This document shows positions 9,723 through 64,000 of a DNA stretch of 64,000 bases, in pieces. Source of the DNA: Polyangiaceae bacterium (lineage in GTDB: Bacteria; Myxococcota_A; Polyangia; Polyangiales; Polyangiaceae). Where the stretch lies: positions 1-64,000 of the forward strand of contig WQYX01000006.1 in the NCBI GenBank assembly GCA_009781005.1, read 5' to 3'. A program made the position numbers and the translations under genes. Within the stretch, counting starts at the first letter, position 1, and each line of letters opens with the position of its first letter. The notes beneath the pieces are model-generated. The model made no database searches. It was not told the origin of the DNA and saw only the letters and a program-made list of their open reading frames with translations.

Positions 9723-10039
9723 GCATGAGAAACTATATAATTTTTAGAAATCATACACTTACTATCTACTTAAAAAGACGCACGCCTGAGAGCGTGTTCG
9801 ACAGGCGTCGCGAGCGAATTGAGGCTAGGGCGGAGCGCGAGGAGCCCGCGCAAGCGTACGTTGTGGTACGTGCGCAGGCACCGCAGCGCCCAACCGACGA
9901 ATCGATTCGCGCAGCAGGCTGCCCTACACGCTCTGAGCGGCATCGCCCAACTTTGGCTAGGATGCGCGACGTCCAACCGCGGACCGGCATCATCGACGTG
10001 AAGAACGACGGCGCGGTCCGAGAGCGAGGTACGAAAAGG
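9723..10039. other. Gene-free region between fic and the TolC-type gene
   Basis: This 317-bp divergent region opens with a markedly AT-rich stretch (9730-9780) containing a perfect TATAAT at 9736-9741 on the plus strand, although no TTGACA is properly spaced from it. The middle is full repeat copy B (9786-9937). The last ~100 bp are unremarkable. The ORF-track extension of the TolC-type ORF into this region is repeat-derived and not considered real. Confidence 0.6.
9786..9937 (-). repeat. Structured repeat family, full copy B
   Basis: A 152-bp element with imperfect terminal arms (CTGAGAGCGTGT... / ...ACACGCTCTGAG). Its core on the minus strand reads GGTTGGGCGCTGCGGTGCCTGC...GCTCCTCGCGCTCCGCC. 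Its arms match those of copy E at 58251-58395, so these two are recent relatives. It sits in the fic/tolC divergent promoter region rather than after a stop codon. Confidence 0.8.
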
Positions 10040-11386: not shown

Positions 11387-11530
11387 AACGCGTTTGCTAA
11401 CCTGCTGCGCGCCGCGATGCCTTCGTTGGGTCCTGCGGTGCCCGCGCACGTACAACAACGTACGCTTCCGCGGGCTCCTCGGACCCGCCTTGGCCTCGCG
11501 GCGCTCGCGACGGTTATCAAACGCGTTTCA
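11384..11530 (+). repeat. Structured repeat family, full copy C
   Basis: A 147-bp element. Arms TGAAACGCGTTTGCTAACC (11384-11402) and GGTTATCAAACGCGTTTCA (11512-11530) pair with one mismatch; the TGA is the stop codon of the TolC-type gene. Core helix GGGTCC pairs with GGACCC where other copies have GGGCCC/GGGCCC or GGGGCC/GGCCCC. Confidence 0.85.
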
Positions 11531-14991: not shown

Positions 14992-17321
14992 TTGAGCGAC
15001 CATCAACATCTCCTCTTGAATACCGCCGAATCCCTCTTTGGTCGTATCGACGAAATCCGCGCCACGCTGCATATCGACGGACAGCCCGACGACGCTCTCG
15101 TGGTCCTGTCCTTCAAGGGTGTCGAAAAGATATCTAAGAACTTCGTCTATAAAGTCACCGTGGCGAGCAGCGCCGAGGCAGCGGCAAAGCTGGATGATGC
15201 GCTCGGGCGCGATGTGCTCTTGACGCTCGGCCGCGCCTCGGACGAGTCGGCAACGCTTTTCGTCCACGGGATGATCCAGGAGGTGTGCCCAAGCGGCGTG
15301 GCCGCGGGCAAAAATCAGCGGCAAACCGTCTTGCGCATCGTGCCGAGACTTCAGGAGCTACGCCACAAGCAGCGATGCCAGGTCTTCCAAGACATGACCG
15401 TGGGGACATTGCCAAGGAGCTCTTCAAACCGTGGCAAATCGAAGTCGTCACGCGACTCCTTCCTGACCCTCTCAAGCGAGATTACTGCACCCAAGTCAAC
15501 GAGACCGACTTCGACTTTCTGCGGCGCATCCTCTCGGAGGAAGGGATCCACTTCCACTTCGAACAGGACGACAAGAAAGCCACCGTGGTCCTGGTCAACG
15601 ATCCACGCGGCTATCAACCCATTGCCGACAAGCAGACTATCGCGTACCGCGACGCCGGCGGCGCTCTGACCACAGATCATATCCGCACCATCGTGCGGGA
15701 GCGGCGCGTCCGTCCGGGGTCGGTTGCTTATCGCGATTACAACTTCCTCCGTCCCACGCGCGCCATGCTGGCGAGCAATGAAGCGACGGCGGAGGGTATG
15801 GGCACGCTTGTGGCGCGTGAGGTTTACGAATACCCCGGACACTACAACGATCCGGACGGCGAGAGCATCGGCGTGGGCGAGGACGTGCAAATTCCAACGC
15901 GCAGCGGCAAAGCGCGTGCGAAACTCCGGCTCGAGGAGCAGCGCGCGGACGTCTTCACGTTCTCGGGCACCACGAATTGCCTGCGCATGCGGGTGGGGAA
16001 AGTTTTCGAAATCAACGACCACCAAGACAAAGCCTTCAATCGAAAGTACACCATCACGCGCGTCGAGCTTCGCGGGGAGGGCGCCGGCGCGCCGGCGCTC
16101 GAGCAGGGGGCCAAGTCGGCAGGCACGGGAGTCTCCGTCACCTTCTGGGCTGTTCCAGCGGAGACACCCATTCGCCCGAAGGTGCGCCCGAAGCCGCCCG
16201 CGCACCTGCGCACCGCGCGCGTGGTAGGACCCAAAGAGGACGAGCCGTACGTCGATGAGTATGGCCGCATCAAGATCCAATTCGCGTGGGACCGAGAAGG
16301 CCCGCTCAACGACAAGAGCTCGTGCTGGGTGCGGATGGCTACCCCCGTGGCGCATCACAATCAGGGGATGTACACGGCGCATCGTGTAGGAGCCGAGGTC
16401 ATTGTTGATTTCTTTGATGGCGATGTAGATCGCCCCGTGGTGGTTGCATCCCTCTTCAACGAAGACAACCGGCAGCCGCAAAAGCTCCCTGACGATGCCA
16501 CGCGGGCGGGTCTCAGCATTCCAGGAAACAAGGGCAACAACGAAATCTCCTGCGAGGACAAGGCGGGACAGGAAGAGATCTTTGTTCATGCGCAAAAAGA
16601 TCTGAATGAGCGCATTCTGCACAACCACGATGAGAAGATTGGCGTCAACCAAACTTCTACCATAGGTGCGAATCAGACGGTGACCGTGGGTGCCAACCAG
16701 ACGGTAACCGTGGGTGCGAATCAAACCATTAGCGTGGGTGCCAATCGTACCGTAACGGTCGGAGCTGATGAGAACATCACTGTCATCCACAAGCGCACGG
16801 AAACCGTCCACCATGGCGAGCTTGTGACGATCAAGGAAGACGGCCGTGACCACACCATCTCGAAGGGGGACGACAAGCTCACCGTCTCGAGGGATAACCG
16901 GATCGTCGACGTGAAGAAAAAACACGAGATCCATTCGCAGTCGCGTGAAGAGAAGGTGGATACAACGATTGACGTGAATGCAGGGACATCCATTTTGCTT
17001 CATCACGGCAAAGATGGGAATCTTAGTATCGAAAAGGAGCTTGTGACGATGTGGACACCCTCGGCAGCCGTCACGATTGCCGGAGGCTTGGTCATGATCA
17101 ACGCCAACGATGCCATCGTGTTGACGTGCGGAGCCGCGAGTCTCAGGCTCGATAGCGATGGGACCGTTACCATCAATGGTTCAGCGTCGGTTGGTCTTAC
17201 GTGCAGCTCTTCGAAGCTCACACTCGAACCGTCAACGGCAGATCTCAAAGGCTCGAGCGTCAACGTGACGGCCAGCGGTATGATGGAGTTGCATGGTGCG
17301 TTTACCAGGATCAACTGCTGA
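14992..17321 (+). CDS. vgrG: Type VI secretion tip protein VgrG, interrupted by a frameshift
   Basis: VgrG trimers cap the T6SS tube. The gene is split: the first ~137 codons are in the frame starting at TTG 14992 (LLNTAESLFGRIDEI..., ending VFQDMTVG), and the rest is in the frame of the 15285-17321 ORF (DIAKELFKPWQIEVVTRLL...). Joining them at the GGGG of 15402-15405 by a -1 shift or one extra G restores the family-typical FQDMTVGDIAKELF and a ~776-residue protein. Later domains: gp27-like fold with NETDFDFLRRILSEEGIHFHFE, OB fold with RIKIQFAWDREG and SSCWVRM, and a C-terminal needle with repeated NQTVTVGA. No other T6SS structural genes are nearby, so this is an orphan effector island. Confidence 0.9.
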
Positions 17322-44760: not shown

Positions 44761-44774
44761 GGAGACCCCACCGC

Positions 44775-44842
44775 GGGGCAGGCACAGGGGCCTGCCCCTA
44801 CGGCCAACGACGCATTCGTAGGGGCGGCCCCCCGTGGCCGCC
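44775..44842. terminator. Triple-hairpin repeat between convergent genes (family 2, copy L)
   Basis: GGGGCAGG/CCTGCCCC, CCCCTACG/CGTAGGGG and GGGCGGCC/GGCCGCCC follow one another with shared arms, as at 2006-2071. It ends exactly at the rplT stop codon and begins 14 bp after the regulator's stop. The shared arms allow two alternative foldings. Confidence 0.7.
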
Positions 44843-45190: not shown

Positions 45191-45227
45191 GAGAGTTCTC
45201 CGTATTCCGTATTTAGACTTAAGACTT

Positions 45228-45372
45228 AGAGGGTGTTTACCAGCCGTTGCGAGCGACGTGAGGCCAAGGCGGGCCCGAGGAGCCCGCGTAAGCGTACTGG
45301 TCGTACGTGCGCAGGCACCGCAGGGCCCAACGAAGGCATCGCGGCGCGCAGCAGGCTGGTAAACACCCTCTT
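45228..45372 (-). repeat. Structured repeat family, full copy D, inside the rpmI-rplT operon
   Basis: A 145-bp element. Arms AGAGGGTGTTTACCAGCC and GGCTGGTAAACACCCTCT pair perfectly; the outer edge includes two bases of the rpmI stop codon. Core helix GGGCCC/GGGCCC with conserved internal-loop strands TGCGGTG and GCTCCTC. Transcribed in the rpmI-rplT message, it would form a hairpin of more than 60 nt per side. Confidence 0.85.
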
Positions 45373-45565
45373 AACCGTTGAGAAGACGCTTGATCTTCTT
45401 CTCGTGCGTGGTCGAAACCATGTCGTTGTTGCGCAAGCGACGGAGACGTTTGCGCGGCTTGTTGATGAGCCCGTGGTTGCCGCCCGCTTTCGAACGACGG
45501 ACACGGCCCTTGCCGGTCAATTTGAACCGCTTCGCCGCGGTCTTGCTGGTCTTCATCTTCGGCAT
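45371..45565 (-). CDS. rpmI: 50S ribosomal protein L35
   Basis: 64 residues from ATG 45565, giving MPKMKTSKTAAKRFKLTGKG, the exact L35 N-terminus; the ORF-track extension is not real. GGAATGGAAGG precedes the start. L35 normally sits in infC-rpmI-rplT; here infC is not upstream (a divergently unrelated phosphohexomutase gene is). Confidence 0.97.
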   Translation of the reverse strand: MPKMKTSKTAAKRFKLTGKGRVRRSKAGGNHGLINKPRKRLRRLRNNDMVSTTHEKKIKRLLNG

Positions 45566-47662: not shown

Positions 47663-48820
47663 ATGATGAAGATGCGGCTGCTGATCGTGGAGGACGACGA
47701 GGCCCTTCGCAGTAGTCTCGTAAGGTCGCTCGACCGCTCGTATGTGATCGACGAGGCTGGCGATGGCAGGGAAGCTTCCGAGTGTTTGACGCACAAAAGA
47801 TTCGATGTTGTGTTGAGCGACATTGACCTGCCGCATGGCTCCGGGATCGACGTGCTGCGCCTCGTGCGCGATTGCGATCTCGATGTGCCGGTGATCTTGA
47901 TGACGGGACAGCCGAGTGTCGACACGGCCATTGAGGCAATGGATCTCGGTGCTTTTACGTATCTCAAGAAGCCTTTCGAACGAGGTACGCTCGAACGCGC
48001 CCTCGGCCGTGCCGGCACGCTCGGGAAGCTCGCGCGCATCAAACGCGAGGCCATGTCGACACTCGGTAAGAACGGCGCTCTTCCCGGAGATCGCGCCGGA
48101 TTGTCGACGATCTTTCAGCAGGCGCTCGACACTCTGTGGATCGCATACCAACCCATCCTGTGCCGGCAGACGCAGAAGACCATCGGTTTCGAGGCCCTGT
48201 TGAGGTGCAAGGCGATGCCGACGCCAAACGCAGTCATCGAAGCGGCCGAACGACTCGATCGCATTCACGATCTTGGCCGGCGCGTGCGAGAGTGCGCGGC
48301 AGCGTGTTTCAAGCCGTGCAATCGCGACATGCTCCTCTTCGTCAACCTCCACGCCGTCGACTTCAGCGATCCCGAGCTTTATTCGTCCACGACCCACCTC
48401 GCAAAGATCGCATCGAGCGTCATTCTCGAAGTCACCGAGCGCACGGCCATCAACGACATTACGGATACGCGCCGTCGCGCAACCGAGCTTCGCTCTCTCG
48501 GTTATCGCATCGCCGTCGACGATCTCGGTGCGGGCTACGCAGGGTTGACGACGTTCGCAAACCTCGAGCCCGAAGTCGTCAAGCTCGATATGTCACTTGT
48601 CCGCAATATCGAAAATTCGCCGGTGCAATTTCGCATTGTCGAGGGCATTACGAATCTTTGCCACTCCCTCGGAATGAAGGTCGTTGCCGAAGGTATCGAG
48701 ACAACGAGAGAGCTTCAAACCATCCATGAGCTCGGATGTGACTATCTTCAGGGGTATCTGCTCGGTGCGCCTCAACCCTTCCTCCTCGATCACGTGATGC
48801 AGCAGCCCGCTTCGATTTGA
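47663..48820 (+). CDS. Response regulator with EAL cyclic-di-GMP phosphodiesterase domain
   Basis: 385 residues. Receiver domain ~1-120: LLIVEDDE, phosphoacceptor Asp in VVLSDIDLPHGSG, ILMTGQP (Thr) and LKKPF (Lys). EAL domain ~145-380: the signature appears as EALLR, followed by VNLHAVDFSD, ILEVTER, AVDDLGAGYAGL, VKLDMSLV, VVAEGIET and LQGYLLGAP, so metal and catalytic residues appear intact and it should hydrolyse c-di-GMP. No partner histidine kinase is adjacent. The last codons and the stop lie within the arm of repeat copy G. Confidence 0.92.
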   Translation: MMKMRLLIVEDDEALRSSLVRSLDRSYVIDEAGDGREASECLTHKRFDVVLSDIDLPHGSGIDVLRLVRDCDLDVPVILMTGQPSVDTAIEAMDLGAFTYLKKPFERGTLERALGRAGTLGKLARIKREAMSTLGKNGALPGDRAGLSTIFQQALDTLWIAYQPILCRQTQKTIGFEALLRCKAMPTPNAVIEAAERLDRIHDLGRRVRECAAACFKPCNRDMLLFVNLHAVDFSDPELYSSTTHLAKIASSVILEVTERTAINDITDTRRRATELRSLGYRIAVDDLGAGYAGLTTFANLEPEVVKLDMSLVRNIENSPVQFRIVEGITNLCHSLGMKVVAEGIETTRELQTIHELGCDYLQGYLLGAPQPFLLDHVMQQPASI

Positions 48821-48925
48821 CGCGATCTCATCGTTGGGGCCTGCGGTGCGGTCCTCAAAGCCATACAAGGCTGTTCCGTTCCGCTCCTCGGCCCCGCCTC
48901 GACCTCGCGTCAACTTGAAGCGGGC
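48805..48925 (+). repeat. Structured repeat family, full copy G
   Basis: A 121-bp element. Arms GCCCGCTTCGATTTGACGCG and CGCGTCAACTTGAAGCGGGC pair; the TGA in the left arm is the stop of the REC-EAL gene. Core GGGGCC/GGCCCC and inner AAAGCC...GGCT. It lies between the convergent REC-EAL and ABC-F genes. Confidence 0.85.
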
Positions 48926-48943
48926 CAGATTTTGTAACGTTCG

Positions 48944-52197: not shown

Positions 52198-52737
52198 ATG
52201 GCAGGCGGATCGCAGCGCACGGCGTATCTCTTGTTGCTGGCTGCGTTGCCTGCATGCTTGAGCGCGCCCGACACCACGGTGGTGATCGAAAACCACTACC
52301 CGCCGTCGTCCACGAACGCGCTCGTCATTTTCCGTGCATCCTACAAAGAAGCGGGCGAGGCGACGGGGGACACGGGAGCCGCGTTCGACCAGCCGATCGT
52401 GCCTGGAGCATCGTCTGATCCTCAATCCGTCGTGGCGGCATCGGACAACCCCGCGTACGTGCTGCTTGCGCCGGGGTGGGATCCCGCGAGCTCGTCGCCT
52501 CCGACCTCGTTCGTCGTTCTTCGATCGCGCGCAGGCTTCGCCGTGCAGTACGGCGATGAGCTCCGCATCCCGGTCGACGACACGACCTTCGCTGGCAACT
52601 GCGCGTCGGGCAGCGTGCTCACGCAGGCCGACGCAGACTTCATCACGCAGCGCATTTTCCCTGTCGCATTCAACACACTTCGCTACGACGCCGCGAGCTG
52701 CACCACGGCGGTGCTCGGTGATGCCAGTGCGAACTAA
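52198..52737 (+). CDS. Putative lipoprotein, hypothetical
   Basis: 179 residues. Signal sequence with lipobox LAALPAC, so predicted lipidated. The mature part is beta-rich (VVIENHYPP, SFVVLRSRAGFAVQYGDELRIPV) with two conserved-looking Cys (GNCASG; SCTTAV). No family recognised. It overlaps the following porin gene by 17 bp and follows the permease by 68 bp, consistent with one operon. Confidence 0.6.
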   Translation: MAGGSQRTAYLLLLAALPACLSAPDTTVVIENHYPPSSTNALVIFRASYKEAGEATGDTGAAFDQPIVPGASSDPQSVVAASDNPAYVLLAPGWDPASSSPPTSFVVLRSRAGFAVQYGDELRIPVDDTTFAGNCASGSVLTQADADFITQRIFPVAFNTLRYDAASCTTAVLGDASAN

Positions 52738-54205
52738 AACGCATTGTCGTTGTCTGCTCGTCGTGGCGTTGTTGGGCGCGCCCCTCGTCCTTCACGCGTC
52801 GCCCGTGATGGCGCAGGCAGCTCCTCCTGCGGGACACGAGGACGACTCCTTCGACGTCATGAACCTGCTCTCCCAGCATGGTCTTCACGACATCGACAAT
52901 GAGGCGTGGAATCTCTACGGGCAATTCACTTACGTCGCGAGCCAAAAGTTCGCGTTCAATGCAAAATACACGAATGCGAACGGTAGCGTGAATTCGCTCG
53001 TGCCGGGTGCCGAGCGGAGTTTCACGATGACCTTCACGCCGTTCTTCGGGCTCAGGCTCTGGCCCGGCGGTGAAGCGTATTTCGTCCCCGAGGTCATCGC
53101 CGAGCGGCCGCTCTCGAGTCTGCGCGGCATTGGCGGTTCCATTCAGATTTTCGAACTTCAAAAGGATGGCACGGTAACCCCTCAAATTTACCGCTCGCGC
53201 ACCTTTCTTCGCCAGACCATCAATCTCGGTGGCCAGCGCGTCAAGAAAGAATCCGACCCCATGCAACTCGGCGCAACGGTGGACAGCCGGCGCATCGTGC
53301 TCACGGGCGGCACGTTCACGATTCTCGACGTCTTCGACCACAACAACGTCACCTGGGATCCGCGCCAGACATTCGTGAACATGGCATTCATGACTCATTC
53401 GTCGTGGGATTTCGCGGCAGATGCGCGAGGGTATTCACTCGGTGGCACCGCCGAGCTCTATTGGGATGAATGGGCACTGCGCATCGGGCGCATGGCGCCG
53501 CCGTCGAATCCAAATCAGCTCCCCATCGTCATCGATTTTTTGCGCCAATACGCTGACGCGTTCGAACTCGAGCACGACCACAAGATCCTCGGACAACCCG
53601 GGGCTGCGCGTCTTTTGGCATACCGAAATCGTGAGATCACCGGACGCTTCAATGAGGCCATTGCGGCCTACGAAGCCGATCCCGTGGGCAGAAATGCCAA
53701 AGCATGCACTGGATTCAATTACGGCTCTGGCAATGCCACGGCGCCCGATCTTTGCTGGGTCCGAAGGCCGAATACCAAAGTGGGAATTGGCATCAATCTC
53801 GAACAATACGTGGCGAAGGATATCGGCCTCTTCTTCCGCGGGATGATCTCCGATGGGAAAACCGAAGTCGATGCCTTCGACCCCGCCGACCGTTCGCTCT
53901 CGTTCGGAAGTGTTGCCAAAGGCTCGGCATGGCACAGGCCTCTCGATGTCACCGGCATTGGGTTCGCATCGAGTTGGATTTCGAAGGACCACGCACGTTA
54001 CCTCGCCATGGGCGGTGTGGACGGCTTCGTGGGCGACGGCGCGCTCACGAAAGCTGCCGAATGCGTCGTGGATTTGTTTTATAGTGTGAATTTCCTTAGA
54101 GCCATTTGGCTGACTGCCGATTACCAGCATCTTTGGAATCCCGGATTCAACTCCGACCGCGGCCCCGTCAATATCCTTAGCGGGAGGGTCCATGCTGAGT
54201 TCTAG
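52721..54205 (+). CDS. OprB-like carbohydrate porin
   Basis: 494 residues from ATG 52721; the ORF-track start lies inside the preceding gene. Signal peptide MPVRTKTHCRCLLVVALLGAPLVLHASPVMA, then a beta-barrel protein ending in Phe (RVHAEF), the outer-membrane insertion signature. LLSQHGLHDIDNEAWNLYGQFTYV, the DVFDHNNVTWDPR region, and YSVNFLRAIWLTADYQHLWNPGFNSDRGPV resemble OprB/carbohydrate-selective porins. Probably a substrate channel for the neighbouring ABC transporter (inference). Confidence 0.85.
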   Translation: MPVRTKTHCRCLLVVALLGAPLVLHASPVMAQAAPPAGHEDDSFDVMNLLSQHGLHDIDNEAWNLYGQFTYVASQKFAFNAKYTNANGSVNSLVPGAERSFTMTFTPFFGLRLWPGGEAYFVPEVIAERPLSSLRGIGGSIQIFELQKDGTVTPQIYRSRTFLRQTINLGGQRVKKESDPMQLGATVDSRRIVLTGGTFTILDVFDHNNVTWDPRQTFVNMAFMTHSSWDFAADARGYSLGGTAELYWDEWALRIGRMAPPSNPNQLPIVIDFLRQYADAFELEHDHKILGQPGAARLLAYRNREITGRFNEAIAAYEADPVGRNAKACTGFNYGSGNATAPDLCWVRRPNTKVGIGINLEQYVAKDIGLFFRGMISDGKTEVDAFDPADRSLSFGSVAKGSAWHRPLDVTGIGFASSWISKDHARYLAMGGVDGFVGDGALTKAAECVVDLFYSVNFLRAIWLTADYQHLWNPGFNSDRGPVNILSGRVHAEF

Positions 54206-55346
54206 CCCGCTTCCGCTTTGGCGCGATCTCATCGTTGGGGCCTGCGCTGCGGTCCTCAAAGCCAAGAGGTTGTTCACTTCGCTTCGCTCCGTCGCTCTCA
54301 CTGCACTCCGTCCACTTCGTGGACTCCGTGCCGTTCGAGTCCGGTCGCTTCCCGTGCCCCGCCTCGACCTCGCGCCAAATCGTTTGCGGTCTAGCGTCGT
54401 GTTCGCGCTGGTTTTTGGTGTGGTAACAACATGGATATCGCCCGCGAAGGCCGAGCCGCAAGCCCTCGGCTTCGGCGTGGAGCGGCTCTCTCCGTCCGCG
54501 CCCGGCGCGGGCTGGTTTGTGCTCGATTCTCTCGATATGCACGGCGGCTTTGGTGGTGTGATGGGGCTCACGCTCGGCTATGCACACAACCCGCTCGTCA
54601 TTGACCGTGGGGGCCAGCATCTCGCGGTCATATCCAATCAAGCGTTCGTAGATTTCGGTTTTGCGCTCACGTATGACCGTTTTCGGCTGTATACGAATTT
54701 CGATAGACCCCTCGTCATCGAGGGAAAGAGTGGAACGGCTCTCGGCCGCACCTTCACGGCACCTGGCATCAATCCCGCCACGCCGCCCGATGTACTGACC
54801 GACGTGCGCATCGGCTTCGATGCGCGCCTTGTTGGCAGCGAAACGAGCCCATTTCGTCTTGGTGCGGGAATACAGCTTTTGGCTCCGAACGGTGAGCGCG
54901 AGAATTACGAAACGGATGGTACTTATCGCGTGATGGGGCGCGTGCTCTTTGCCGGTGATCAAGGACTCTTCACGTACGCGGGCCACCTCGGCGTGCACGT
55001 CCGTCCTCTCAACGACGCACCCACCCCCGAGAGCCCGCGCGGCAGCGAGTTGCTCTTTGCAGCCGGCGGCGGCGTGCGTTTGCCGGTCGGCGGCACCTCT
55101 CACGTGCTCGTGATCGGCCCGGAAATTTTCGGTGCAAGCGCGTTTCGCGCGCTGTTCGGAGGTGAGACCACGGCGCTCGAAGGACTCCTCTCGGGGCGGC
55201 TCGAAGGCACGGCCAGCGACGGGCCCCAACTTCGCTTCAAGCTCGGTGCCGGGGCCGGCATCGATCCACGTTTTGGCGCGCCTGACTTCCGCATGGTCTT
55301 TGGTATTGAAGTCTTCGATCGAGGCAACAGCCGCCACCTGAAGTAG
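54192..55346 (+). CDS. Outer membrane beta-barrel protein whose start was altered by an in-frame repeat insertion
   Basis: 384 residues from ATG 54192, which has GGGAGGG 6 bases upstream. After MLSS the reading enters repeat copy H for 63 codons (RDLIVGACAAVLKAK...RLDLAPNRL) and then reaches a normal signal peptide (VVFALVFGVVTTWISPAKA). Removing one TCTAGC duplicate and the insert restores MLSSSVVFALVFGVVTTWISPAKA. The mature part has amphipathic strands, Gly/Tyr/Phe-rich, typical of a small barrel. Whether the longer N-terminus still allows export is unknown; an in-frame TTG just before the signal core could serve as a new start. Confidence 0.75.
   Translation: MLSSSPLPLWRDLIVGACAAVLKAKRLFTSLRSVALTALRPLRGLRAVRVRSLPVPRLDLAPNRLRSSVVFALVFGVVTTWISPAKAEPQALGFGVERLSPSAPGAGWFVLDSLDMHGGFGGVMGLTLGYAHNPLVIDRGGQHLAVISNQAFVDFGFALTYDRFRLYTNFDRPLVIEGKSGTALGRTFTAPGINPATPPDVLTDVRIGFDARLVGSETSPFRLGAGIQLLAPNGERENYETDGTYRVMGRVLFAGDQGLFTYAGHLGVHVRPLNDAPTPESPRGSELLFAAGGGVRLPVGGTSHVLVIGPEIFGASAFRALFGGETTALEGLLSGRLEGTASDGPQLRFKLGAGAGIDPRFGAPDFRMVFGIEVFDRGNSRHLK
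54201..54395 (+). repeat. Structured repeat family, full copy H, with 6-bp target-site duplication
   Basis: TCTAGC at 54201-54206 and again at 54390-54395 flank the element. Arms contain TTTGGCGCGA and TCGCGCCAAA, where other copies have GTTGACGCGA/TCGCGTCAAC: a compensatory change. The core is ATCGTTGGGGCCTGCG; this copy carries an extra stem (GTCCACTTCGTGGAC). The offset between duplicates is 189 bp, so the frame is kept. Confidence 0.85.
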
Positions 55347-55386: not shown

Positions 55387-56628
55387 ATGATTGTGCGCAT
55401 CTGGGTCAAGAATTTTCGCATGCTGGCGAGTAACCGGGTGGACCTTAGACGGTTCGCCGTGCTCGTCGGCCGAAACGCGTCGGGCAAGAGCACGCTCATG
55501 TCGGCATTGCGTTTCGTGAGCACCGTACTCTCCGACGGGGTCGAACGGGCCGTCGACGTCGCACTCGACGGATCCGGCGCAAGCTTTCGTGATCTCTGCT
55601 TCGAGGAACACAAACCGATCGCCATCGCACTCGTGGTGAACTTGGCAGAACGCTACTATCGCTACGAAATCGAGGTCGCTCAGTACGGTAGTGACACCCC
55701 GGTGGTCAAGCGTGAGAATCTGTTCCTTCTGCCCGAGCTCCCCGAGGATGCAACCGACCCATCCCGCTTGCAAACGAGCCTTTTTGGCGATCTCGAGCTC
55801 GACGAAGTCGTCCACCAAAACAGCCCACGTGGGGCGCGATGGCGAAAAATCGTCGGCAAGACGGCCGAAGGCAAAGACTATTTTCAAGACGAGAAGACAG
55901 ACTGGAACAACCAATTTCGCTTTGGCCCAACGCGCTCGGCACTCGGCAATATCCCTGAAGACACAGATCGTTTTCCTGGAGCCATTGCCGTCCGCAACCT
56001 GCTGCGCGACGGCGTCAGGATGATTGAGCTCGACTCGCACAAGCTCCGAATGCCATCTCCGCCGCGCAGCGCCACGGCGCTCTCGAACGATGGCGGAAAC
56101 CTCGCGATCGCAGCGCGCATCCTCGAAGGGCGTGACCGTGTTGCATTCGAGCAATGGGTTGCTCACGTGGCGGACGCCGTCCCCGGCTTGACGTCCATCG
56201 ACACCTGGGAACGCCCCGAAGACAAGCATGTCGTGCTTCGCGCGCGCTTCGACGGAAACCATACCGATCCCGTACCGTCGTGGCTTCTTTCGGACGGCAC
56301 ACTGCGCCTGCTTGCCCTCTCGCTCCTCGCGTTCGCGGAGACCGAGGATCAGCCCGGCCTATGCCTCGTGGAAGAGCCCGAGAATGGCCTTCACCCTCTC
56401 GCAATTCAATCGGTGTTCCAAGCGCTTTCGCAAATGCACACAACACAGGTCTTTGTCGCAACACATTCCCCTGTGTTTCTCGCGCAAACATCTTTGGAGG
56501 AAGCACTCGTCTTCCGTCGAGGCCCCCTCGGAGTTTCACAAATTCAGCGAGGCGCTGAGCTCGCCGCACTCGCCAACTGGAAAGAGCGCGTCATCCTCCC
56601 CGATCTGTTCGCGACCGGAGTCCTCTGA
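55387..56628 (+). CDS. AAA15/AAA_21-type ATPase (OLD/RecF-like), first gene of a defence-like pair
   Basis: 413 residues. ABC-type ATPase head of the OLD/SMC-like group: N-terminal VKNFRMLASNRVDLRRFAVLVGRNASGKST (Walker A), ABC signature WLLSDGTLRLLALSLL, Walker B LCLVEEPENGLHPLAI, and switch ATHSPVFL. No TOPRIM nuclease is fused. Its stop overlaps the next start by one base (TGATG), and the next gene supplies a candidate TOPRIM-like partner, a configuration seen in anti-phage pairs such as PARIS and related AAA/DUF4276 modules. Function predicted, not shown. Confidence 0.85.
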   Translation: MIVRIWVKNFRMLASNRVDLRRFAVLVGRNASGKSTLMSALRFVSTVLSDGVERAVDVALDGSGASFRDLCFEEHKPIAIALVVNLAERYYRYEIEVAQYGSDTPVVKRENLFLLPELPEDATDPSRLQTSLFGDLELDEVVHQNSPRGARWRKIVGKTAEGKDYFQDEKTDWNNQFRFGPTRSALGNIPEDTDRFPGAIAVRNLLRDGVRMIELDSHKLRMPSPPRSATALSNDGGNLAIAARILEGRDRVAFEQWVAHVADAVPGLTSIDTWERPEDKHVVLRARFDGNHTDPVPSWLLSDGTLRLLALSLLAFAETEDQPGLCLVEEPENGLHPLAIQSVFQALSQMHTTQVFVATHSPVFLAQTSLEEALVFRRGPLGVSQIQRGAELAALANWKERVILPDLFATGVL

Positions 56629-57230
56629 TGGGTAGGGTCGATCTGGTCGTTCTTTTCGCTGATGCCGACGCGGAGCGATTCGTTACAAAGCTCATCGAAC
56701 GAGGAATCGAACGCAGTTGTCTGCGAAACATGAACCGAAAGTTCGTCCGCGATCCCATGTGTGATTCACATGTTGCCAGCAAGCCAACCGCGGCACTCGC
56801 CCCTTATCTTGGCCAGCCAACGTGCCGCTTTTTAGTAGTGCTCGATCACCATGGTTCTGGGTATGAAGCGCATCCTCGGGAAAGGCTCGAACAAGACATT
56901 GTCGACCACTTGGTGCGCGCAGGCGTCGACGGGAAGCAGGTTGCGGTGATTGCGTTCGAGCCCGAGCTCGAGATCGCGTTGCTCCCCGCATGGGAACGCG
57001 TGGTCGCACTGCTTGCGAAGAAGCGCGACGAGCTTCCTTCGACGACCATCGCCATGGACGCGCAGGATCCAAAATCGAGTTTGGCAGCTGCTCTCAAATA
57101 TTACCGCTTGAAGAGTGGGGCCGCTCTCTTCGCTGATCTGGCAAACGAGTTGTCGCTGGAACGCTTGAAGACGGGGGTGGCGTTGGGGCGGATTTCGCAG
57201 CATTTGGTCGACTGGTTCGGCATGCGATGA
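56628..57230 (+). CDS. Candidate TOPRIM-like (DUF4276-like) partner of the upstream ATPase
   Basis: 200 residues. Short hydrophobic strands ending in acids at the expected TOPRIM spacing: LVVLFADADAERF near the N-terminus, then FLVVLDHHGSG and VIAFEPELEIALL (conserved Glu residues). The tail is helical. This matches the general plan of stand-alone TOPRIM/DUF4276 partners of AAA15 ATPases. The stop overlaps the following permease start (ATGA), so the defence-like pair is embedded in the transporter operon. Confidence 0.6.
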   Translation: MGRVDLVVLFADADAERFVTKLIERGIERSCLRNMNRKFVRDPMCDSHVASKPTAALAPYLGQPTCRFLVVLDHHGSGYEAHPRERLEQDIVDHLVRAGVDGKQVAVIAFEPELEIALLPAWERVVALLAKKRDELPSTTIAMDAQDPKSSLAAALKYYRLKSGAALFADLANELSLERLKTGVALGRISQHLVDWFGMR

Positions 57231-58197: not shown

Positions 58198-58467
58198 AGT
58201 TCCCATTCGGAAACTGCTGCGCGCCGCAAATCGTGGGTTCGGCCTCCCTCAGAGCGTGTAGGGCAGCCGTCGCGAGCGAATCGAGGCTAGGGCGGAGCGC
58301 GAGCACCGGGCGGAACAGGCTTAATGCCTTTGAGCACGGAGCGCAGCGCCCAACCGACGCATCGATTTCGCGCAGCAGGCTGCCCTACACGCTCTCAAAA
58401 TACTCCGAGTATTCCTCGTTCGGCCTCGCTAGCTTTGCGTCGCTCGCGACGTTTCCGAATGGGAACT
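58198..58467 (+). repeat. Structured repeat family, copy F, interrupted by nested copy E
   Basis: Arms AGTTCCCATTCGGAAAC (58198-58214) and GTTTCCGAATGGGAACT (58451-58467) pair perfectly. Just inside are the family ends TGCTGCGCGCCGC and GCGTCGCTCGCGAC. The centre is occupied by full copy E in the opposite orientation, so F was present before E inserted. Begins 2 bp after the permease stop. The gene-free 58196-58523 gap is essentially this composite. Confidence 0.8.
58251..58395 (-). repeat. Structured repeat family, full copy E (nested in F)
   Basis: 145 bp with perfect arms AGAGCGTGTAGGGCAGCC / GGCTGCCCTACACGCTCT, the same arm sequence as copy B about 48 kb away. Core helix GGGCGC/GCGCTC. 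Same arms in two distant copies show that arms travel with the element, at least in this branch. Confidence 0.85.
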
Positions 58468-59716: not shown

Positions 59717-59768
59717 ACTCACCGCATCCCGGCACGTTGTACTCTATGAGATAGTACATCTTCAGCTA

Positions 59769-59890
59769 GACCGCTTTCAAGTTGACGTGAGGTCGAGGCG
59801 GGGCCGAGGAGCGGACCGGAACAGCCTTGAAGGCTTTGAGGACCGCACCGCAGGCCCCAACGAAGAGATCGCGTCAAATCGAAAGCGGTC
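59769..59890 (-). repeat. Structured repeat family, full copy I
   Basis: 122 bp. Arms GACCGCTTTCAAGTTGACGTGA and TCGCGTCAAATCGAAAGCGGTC. Core on the minus strand: TTCGTTGGGGCCTGCGGTGCGGTCCTC...GCTCCTCGGCCCCGCC. Its end includes two bases of the aminotransferase stop codon; lies between convergent fur and that gene. Confidence 0.88.
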
Positions 59891-61148
59891 AGAAGGCGGC
59901 GACGAGCTCTTCGAGGTGGGTAAGCGCGCGCTCGACGACCTCCGCCGACGGGCCGAACGAGAAACGCACGTAATCGCGAAAGCGCGATGCGCGGCCGTGG
60001 CGTCGCTTGCCAGGGTTCACGTCGAAAAACTCGCCGGGCACGACGATGACTTTCTTGGATAGCGCCGCGCGAAACAATCCCATACCGTCGTTGAGCGGTG
60101 AGGGGAGGTTCGCGACGTTGCCCCACGCGTAGAACGTGCCGTCCGGGGCGCGGTCGAAACGTATGCCGATGCGCTCGAGACGCGAGAGCATCCGATCGCG
60201 CTTGTCGCGGAACACGTTTTGAATCGCCATGGTCTCTTGGATGACGTGCTCCTCTTCGAAGAGCGGGATGGCAGCGCGCTGAAGTGGTCTGCTCCCGCCG
60301 CCGTCGAGAAACGATCCGGCGCTTGCGAAGCGTTCGATGACGGTCTTCGGGCCGAGCGCCCACGTGATGCGCCACCCTGGATAGCGCCAGTTCTTGGTGA
60401 GGCCGTCGAAGACGACGACGGGATCACGATCGACGTCTTCGACGTAGCGCGCGGCGCTCTCGACGGCCAGCGATCCGGGACGACCGCGATAGATGTAATG
60501 GGAATAGAACTCGTCGAGCAGGAGCGTGCAGTCGAGATTGCGTGCAGTGTGCACCCAACGATCGAGCTCGTCATCCGAGACGAGTTTGCCTGTGGGATTG
60601 CATGGATTCGACAGAAGCAGCGCGGAGAGGCCGCGCCCCAAGATTTCGCGCCGAAGGTCGTCGGAGGTGAAGCTGTAGCCGCGAGCGCCCTCGAGCAGAA
60701 TGGGGATGCTCGTGAACGCCTTGAAGATGTCGAGCAGCTCCTCGTATGCCGTGTAGTCGGGGAGAAAGTGTCCGAGGTTGATGCTGCCGAGACTGGCTGC
60801 AGCGCGCGTGAGCGCAGCGCGGCCGCCACCGGAGACGCACACGTTCTCGGCCGTGTACTGCGAGGGCAGACCCTTGCGATAGAGGCGGTTATAAAGATTT
60901 GCGACCGCTTCGCGCAGCTCGGGCAGGCCCTGGATGGGCGCGTACTCCTGGTCGTCCGGGTCGACGGTGACTTCGCGCACGCGCGGCGGTGCGCCGGGAA
61001 GTTCGCCGGTCTCGGGCTGCCCCTGTCCGAGGTTGCACCAGGCAGGATCGTTCGAGCGAAATCCGAGCTTCGCGGCTTCGCTCGTGACGTAAATGACCCC
61101 CGTTTTTGGTACCGGGCGGAACGCGTAGAAATCGTCGACCACGGTCAT
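59889..61148 (-). CDS. Class I/II pyridoxal-phosphate aminotransferase
   Basis: 419 residues from ATG 61148 (GAGGGAAC upstream). Fold type I enzyme: CNLGQGQPETGELPGAP, YAPIQGLPELREAVANLY, NPCNPTGKLV (PLP Asn), LLLDEFYSHYIY (Asp and Tyr), and the Schiff-base Lys in GLTKNWRYPGWRITWALG; C-terminal YVRFSFGPS has the carboxylate Arg. Differs from the aspC-type gene at 27.8-29.0 kb, with an unusual N-terminus (VIYVTSEAAKLGF). Substrate unknown. Confidence 0.88.
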   Translation of the reverse strand: MTVVDDFYAFRPVPKTGVIYVTSEAAKLGFRSNDPAWCNLGQGQPETGELPGAPPRVREVTVDPDDQEYAPIQGLPELREAVANLYNRLYRKGLPSQYTAENVCVSGGGRAALTRAAASLGSINLGHFLPDYTAYEELLDIFKAFTSIPILLEGARGYSFTSDDLRREILGRGLSALLLSNPCNPTGKLVSDDELDRWVHTARNLDCTLLLDEFYSHYIYRGRPGSLAVESAARYVEDVDRDPVVVFDGLTKNWRYPGWRITWALGPKTVIERFASAGSFLDGGGSRPLQRAAIPLFEEEHVIQETMAIQNVFRDKRDRMLSRLERIGIRFDRAPDGTFYAWGNVANLPSPLNDGMGLFRAALSKKVIVVPGEFFDVNPGKRRHGRASRFRDYVRFSFGPSAEVVERALTHLEELVAAF

Positions 61149-63766: not shown

Positions 63767-64000
63767 GAGTGACGTGCGTCATCGAGCGCATGACCGAGGC
63801 CGATCTCGACGAAGTCGTTACGATCGATCTCGACGCGTTTCATCCCGACCGCTTTCAAGTTGACGCGATTTCATCGTTGGCGGCTGCGGTGCGGTCCTCA
63901 AAGCCGAAGCAGGCTGTTCCGGTCCGCTCCTCGCCGGCCGCCTCGAACTCGCGTCAACTTGAAAGCGGTCTAGAAAGTGCGCGCGTGCTCCGAGAGGCGA
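63763..64000 (+). CDS. rimI: RimI-like N-acetyltransferase, 5' part, carrying an in-frame repeat insertion (3' truncated by window edge)
   Basis: Open from GTG 63763 to the window end (79 codons). IERMTEADLDEVVTIDLDAF is the GNAT entry segment of RimI (ribosomal protein S18 alanine N-acetyltransferase), and SARVLREA at the window end looks like the start of the next helix (family form ..LREEL). Between them lie ~41 residues encoded by repeat copy J (DRFQVDAISSLAAAVRSSKP...SRQLESG), an alpha1-loop insertion. Family members have no such segment, as far as I know. Translationally coupled to the upstream gene. Confidence 0.65.
   Translation, partial: MRVTCVIERMTEADLDEVVTIDLDAFHPDRFQVDAISSLAAAVRSSKPKQAVPVRSSPAASNSRQLESGLESARVLREA
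63847..63970 (+). repeat. Structured repeat family, full copy J, inside a coding region
   Basis: 124 bp. Arms GACCGCTTTCAAGTTGACGCGA and TCGCGTCAACTTGAAAGCGGTC pair perfectly. Core shows GGCGGC facing GCCGCC where the consensus is GGGGCC/GGCCCC, another compensatory pair. No stop codon arises in the reading frame used by the rimI-like gene. Confidence 0.88.

Follow-up and report, generated by a model that had tools for sequence, protein, structure and literature searches.

MIRUs are units of 46-100 bp that carry an open reading frame of their own and are not long palindromes. They are dispersed and mobile, and they insert at stop/start junctions where the downstream gene is kept translationally coupled (PMC12548453). 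The termini of GTAG-REPs often supply TAG stops (PMC3733652), while RPEs are palindromic mobile repeats of about 100-150 bp that are found in frame inside unrelated proteins (PMC2229807, PMC10969869), and bacterial MITEs such as Correia, RUP and ERIC are short, non-coding, mobile elements of high copy number with inverted repeats, many of them with TA ends (PMC2229807).

The repeat family described here was met as one copy, copy H, in a window of 64,000 nucleotides from a Polyangiaceae bacterium (host genome G000, 4.77 Mb in 199 contigs), and it combines traits of MIRUs, GTAG-REPs and RPEs. Like MIRUs, the members of what we call family 1 are dispersed mobile repeats, and some lie at stop/start junctions. 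They differ in using all three stop codons, in forming a hairpin of 45-320 bp whose terminal stems are interchangeable, and in being able to become joined to the downstream reading frame; stop/start sites of the MIRU type, DTGA, are matched by one ATGA case (G0C1 114113, minus strand) and by the overlap at H, most copies being found at stops of all three kinds. The resemblance to the GTAG and CGTC families of REPs and REPINs is that of high-copy palindromes near gene ends. REPs, however, measure 20-40 bp, bear a tetranucleotide tag and are partnered by a RAYT (Y1), whereas the present units are longer (mostly 120-190 bp or, more widely, 119-320 bp), their ends vary among subfamilies and show neither GTAG nor CGTC at the base of a 20-40 bp palindrome, and the genome of the sister species G009 has no Y1_Tnp. 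The likeness to RPEs is one of position, since a palindromic repeat lies in frame within unrelated open reading frames in three cases, a minority of the copies, but RPEs are as a rule situated within reading frames, whereas here the three cases, in different frames, stand among many stop-codon insertions. As in MITEs we find a short non-coding element with terminal inverted repeats and many dispersed copies, but no target-site duplication was detected across 64 copies, no parent transposase was found among DDE_3 and the four DDE_Tnp_1 loci inspected, and the terminal sequences vary while their pairing is kept. Among the traits compared, the target duplication of MITEs and the tag and a RAYT in both hosts expected of REPs are lacking, and we place the family among the small palindromic mobile repeats, as a new variant.

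Copy H lies at the junction of two genes, where the window holds the following features:

52334..54205, plus strand: open reading frame of the upstream OprB-like porin, longer than the likely gene, with its TAG stop at 54203-54205
54182..54188, plus strand: GGGAGGG ribosome-binding site of the downstream gene, kept before the ATG in G009 and reading GGGAGGC in G012
54192..54205, plus strand: insertion target, ATGCTGAGTTCTAG, where the downstream ATG and the porin stop overlap over 14 nt, insert-free in G009 and G012
54206..54394, plus strand: copy H, palindromic element CCCGCTTCCGC...GTTTGCGGTCTAG, 189 bp or 63 codons, with empty orthologous sites
54192..55346, plus strand: downstream protein, 384 codons long, of which about codons 5-67 are the 63-codon insert
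54384..54452, plus strand: region of the original signal peptide, or alternative TTG start, MRSSVVFALVFGVVTTWISPAKA

The upstream gene matches OprB (Pfam PF04966, E 1.8e-20), and its product ends in HAEF at the same stop codon in three genomes, namely in the window and in the orthologues of G009 and G012. The downstream protein is 77% identical to its G009 orthologue and has a predicted structure of 12 long strands (mean pLDDT 69.7), for which the best PDB matches are outer-membrane channels, barrels such as FapF, 4RL8 and OmpG, and it is accordingly predicted with moderate confidence to be an outer-membrane beta-barrel. Elsewhere in the window an AAA_21 ATPase (Pfam) is followed by an overlapping small gene (55387-57230), a pair that resembles two-gene OLD-like or AbiEii-like defence pairs, and 24-bp tandem repeats (GGTGCnAAyCAGACnGTnACCGTG) are found at 16641-16760.

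The initial annotation of this stretch, made from the letters alone, described a mobile repeat that had added 63 in-frame codons ahead of a signal peptide, with a 6-bp target duplication. The insertion is borne out by two element-free orthologues, and the duplication is not. In the sister species G009, GGGAGGGTCCATGCGGAGTTTTAG is followed by AGTCCTGCTC and then directly by the signal peptide, and in G012, which belongs to another genus, ATGCGGAGTTCTAG is followed by GTTCGCC, neither of them with an insert. Placed side by side, the junctions read ATGCGGAGTTTTAG and AGTC in G009, ATGCGGAGTTCTAG and GTTC in G012, and in the window ATGCTGAGTTCTAG (54192-54205), 189 bp ending in GCGGTCTAG (54394), and CGTC, which continues as CGTCGTG. 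If the insert is taken out, the window encodes M-LSSS-VVFALVFGVVTTWISPAKA, the layout that had been anticipated and that is indeed present in the element-free orthologues. These comparisons show copy H to be a real insertion of 63 codons behind the porin stop, inside the 14-nt gene overlap. What would have spoken against this, according to the initial annotation, was the presence of the 63 codons in orthologues whose genomes are otherwise devoid of the repeat; this was not observed, the G009 and G012 orthologues both being insert-free. That the insert is instead ancestral and was precisely lost from the relatives is exceedingly improbable, since two separate lineages are without it and have a clean stop/start overlap, and since the copies most similar to H are found in its own genome; no observation in its favour was found.

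A transposon that duplicates 6 bp upon insertion was suggested by the TCTAGC hexamers, which do flank H on both sides (54201-54206 and 54390-54395, spaced by 189 bp), the porin TAG lying within the left one. This is nonetheless highly improbable, since the right TCTA(G) is the family's own end: the bases after GCGGTC are T in 72% of the family copies, then A in 65% and then G in 51%, and this end is present whichever stop precedes the element, TGA, TAA or TAG, and whatever the left flank. The left TCTAG is native target sequence (TTCTAG in G012), the C that immediately precedes CCGC is found again at 13 of 16 H-subtype loci read, at unrelated genes, and the base after the TAG is G in G012 and A in G009, not C. 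Furthermore, the longest word shared by 64 paired flanks averages 3.11 nt against 3.09 +/- 0.10 in shuffles, and duplications of 2-6 bp, sought in several registers over 64 copies, gave no signal; chance alone is expected to give such a set at least one 6-nt match, as 588 of 1000 shuffles hold at least one copy with a flank match of 6 nt or more. As far as the flanks can tell, the TCTAGC match at H is a coincidence. At most loci the insertion boundary cannot be fixed to the base, the intergenic sequence being about 77% identical to that of the nearest relative, but the copy at G0C2 30804 has a clean boundary, with TTTTGA followed by ATTATG in G009 versus TTTTGA, CCGC..GCGGTTTA and ATCATG in the occupied site, and here the terminal TA belongs to the element and no base is duplicated. 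The case for mobility, which had been built on the duplication, rests instead on the empty orthologous sites.

The segment between the hexamers belongs to a dispersed palindromic repeat, as had been recognized, and its abundance is far beyond chance: the full copy H gives 41 BLAST hits, left arms number about 199 in the host genome and 98 in G009, and the exact core 20-mer occurs 106 times in the host genome, 23 times in G009, 10 times in G107 (another genus of the family) and once in one further genome, being absent from the rest of the 317 genomes of the class, so that 4 of 317 carry it in a patchy distribution. Many host contigs (C2, C16, C23, C28, C38, C96, C171 and others) end within the repeat; the assembly thus appears broken by it, and the copy number is probably underestimated. 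Besides H, the window contains these copies:

59765..59894, minus strand: family-1 copy, short form, with its left end at the TGA stop of a minus-strand gene
48802..48929, plus strand: family-1 copy, the upstream gene now ending at an in-element TGA (+12)
63846..63975, plus strand: family-1 copy
9785-9937, 11393-11522, 45222-45374 and 58205-58400: second family, with the same inner core CGTTGGGCCCTGCGGTGC and terminal stems TRAGAGnGTG...

The short form folds as one long hairpin, in which 42 pairs are 98% paired over 26 copies, with two-sided changes at 15 of the hairpin pairs in the same 26 copies. The covariation score of 0.116 compares with 0.030 in shuffles, where 0 of 500 were as high, a count that is not a probability because related copies are not independent, and the slid controls (at most 0.026) agree. 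The RNA of H alone folds at -77.3 kcal/mol (z -4.43), the terminal stems vary among subfamilies with the pairing preserved, and Rfam covariance models gave no match at E <= 1 in six loci. The family-1 element is a covarying hairpin. Taken over the subfamilies, the ends of the elements read (C)TAGACCGC..., TRAGAGnGTG... (second family) or TAACACCG..., and most subtypes have TTTGA at +12 on the left side or CTTGA close to the right end, while the H subtype (CCGCTTCCGCTTTGG...CCAAATCGTTTGCGG) has neither. A search for long copies with cargo returned two pairs of left and right arms 1.2-1.4 kb apart, all others being within 0.32 kb.

Hairpins of a third type, with GTAGGGGC arms, lie directly behind stops at three G009 loci (L110, L111 and L113) and also occur in the window at 2002-2059 and 44773-44830. 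The one in L113 ends in TTTGAAAGCGGTCTAG, which is the family-1 right end, and the elements therefore look chimeric. At G000:C3:21058-21238 (L084:1058-1238) the gene-end word GGCTGGTGGCGTTGA recurs after the element, where a second left arm comes next, an arrangement that resembles a tandem duplication of flank and element and that may possibly hint at the mechanism. As to the enzyme responsible, a RAYT/Y1 transposase was rejected, there being one Y1_Tnp in the host genome and none in G009 despite its roughly 98 copies, and so was a group II intron or other retroelement, as neither genome has a reverse transcriptase (RVT_1). IS630-type transposases (DDE_3) were likewise not found in G000, G009 or G107, and the four DDE_Tnp_1 loci inspected hold no family-1 arms or core, one of them having a weak family-2 arm match.

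That H adjoins a stop codon had been no more than a side remark in the initial annotation, and it now emerges as the general pattern of the family. A left end was scored as stop-anchored when the stop of an open reading frame of at least 120 codons starts 3-8 nt before CCGC, that is with the element 0-5 nt behind the stop. This holds for 53 of 97 left ends versus 13 of 88 right ends (distinct ends, sequence read; Fisher p 1.7e-8), the stop starting at -3 in 28 and at -4 in 16, and for about 1% (0.5-0.9%) of equal-sized control windows 25-90 nt away. About half of the left ends have no long-ORF stop at the edge, and the insertions are mostly in sense orientation relative to the upstream gene. 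The junction stops TGA:TAG:TAA are used 30:17:6 versus 299:128:92 in the genome (p 0.33), an indication that the stops are native and were not brought in by the element. Of 13 orthologous pairs examined, 8 have the stop of the G009 gene at the homologous codon (H, G0C2 30804, G0C1 113994, G0C1 38757, G0C1 13637, G0C3 71443, G0C3 59663 and the C27 copy), and in 3 of these 8 G009 has a different hairpin repeat, of the GTAGGGGC type or similar, directly behind that stop. The five pairs that are not identical comprise one off by one codon, one off by three with both genomes occupied, and three in which the last few codons have been replaced by the element. The second family, with its other terminal stems, begins at stops as TRA followed by GAG..., many genome copies having the gene's stop codon as their left end, and the G107 relatives, which share the core but not the ends, start TAA followed by CACCG..., this being the end of an upstream open reading frame in 4 of 8 read. 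At the family level, and from the orthologous sites, the copies can thus be seen to insert mostly in one orientation directly behind gene stop codons.

Of the 16 H-subtype loci read, 12 lie within 8 nt behind a stop and 3 are read through from a start codon just upstream. The latter are H, G0C1 114113 (minus strand), where an ATGA overlap precedes an exported-protein gene with a CXXCH motif, and L048, a lipoprotein gene with an in-frame insertion. The G009 orthologues are insert-free at all three, the old signal sequence follows the insert in each, and both H and G0C1 114113 are stop-free in every forward frame. The three inserts are read in three different frames, and hence have no common peptide. 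The simplest reading is that out-of-frame insertions are lost and in-frame ones tolerated.

The explanation that we consider very probably correct as a whole is that of a mobile hairpin inserting behind stops, with H inside a gene overlap, its frame kept and the extension tolerated. H is one of the roughly 200 copies of a mobile element that is non-autonomous and forms a single long hairpin. It landed behind the porin TAG and, because this stop and the start of the following gene overlap over 14 nt, inside the downstream beta-barrel gene, placing 189 bp within about codons 5-67, and since the H subtype has neither the TTTGA at +12 nor the CTTGA, the forward frames are open and the reading frame survived. 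As originally described, the downstream frame is open from its ATG (54192, with GGGAGGG at 54182-54188) through the repeat for 63 codons, which include SPLPLWRDLIVGACAAVLK. Translation would probably still begin at this ATG, coupled to that of the porin, and as the ATG keeps both the GGGAGGG and the porin-stop overlap, the likely product is predicted to be a 384-residue precursor with a 67-residue leader ahead of the old signal peptide. From the TTG at 54384, which lies within the element and has no clear Shine-Dalgarno or ribosome-binding site, a signal peptide of 23 residues would result.

It may be argued that the 63 residues have been domesticated and now serve the barrel protein as a useful leader, much as has been suggested for some palindromic elements of Rickettsia, and the intact frame as well as the fact that three independent insertions precede signal sequences would fit such a role. 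We regard this as improbable, however, since the three insertions use three frames without a common peptide and since the leader is absent from the G009 and G012 orthologues; the use of three different frames rather suggests that the extension is probably tolerated and not useful. A more serious alternative concerns the stops themselves, namely that insertion is wide and untargeted, and that purifying selection leaves mainly those copies right behind stops that spare the upstream protein and the downstream start. The agreement of junction stop usage with that of the genome is what one would expect without trinucleotide recognition, some copies have replaced the last codons of genes, and stop codons lie near the ends in most subtypes, and we therefore hold this to be a real possibility, if one that falls short of being probable. 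Selection alone should leave many copies 10-100 nt behind stops, but the level there is about 1% per 6 nt versus 55% at the edge, and the strong sense orientation (53 of 97 versus 13 of 88) is not obviously selected. The covarying fold, the sense orientation and the position at gene ends would also agree with a hairpin that serves the host at gene 3' ends as terminator, attenuator or RNA stabiliser and is retained behind stops by that function. This seems doubtful, as different elements occupy the same stop in two species, several of the orthologous sites have no insert, the copies read have no U-tract after the hairpin, and the presence over the class is patchy.

Returning to the mobile hairpin, we tentatively suggest, while thinking it rather unlikely to hold in every part, that it finds its targets as stop codons of any kind, perhaps by way of RNA or the terminating ribosome, without a reverse transcriptase and without target duplication, and that overlapping genes are open to invasion by its stop-free subtype, which would extend their products neutrally at the N-terminus. 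Palindromic repeats are often placed near gene ends in loose terms, whereas the position seen here is precise to a few bases, directional and independent of the type of stop. It holds for two families and for two genera, alongside orthologous sites that are empty, and this makes targeting of stop codons, as opposed to mere retention there, directly testable. For the proteins concerned, it means that the repeat can lengthen them at overlapping genes without destroying them.
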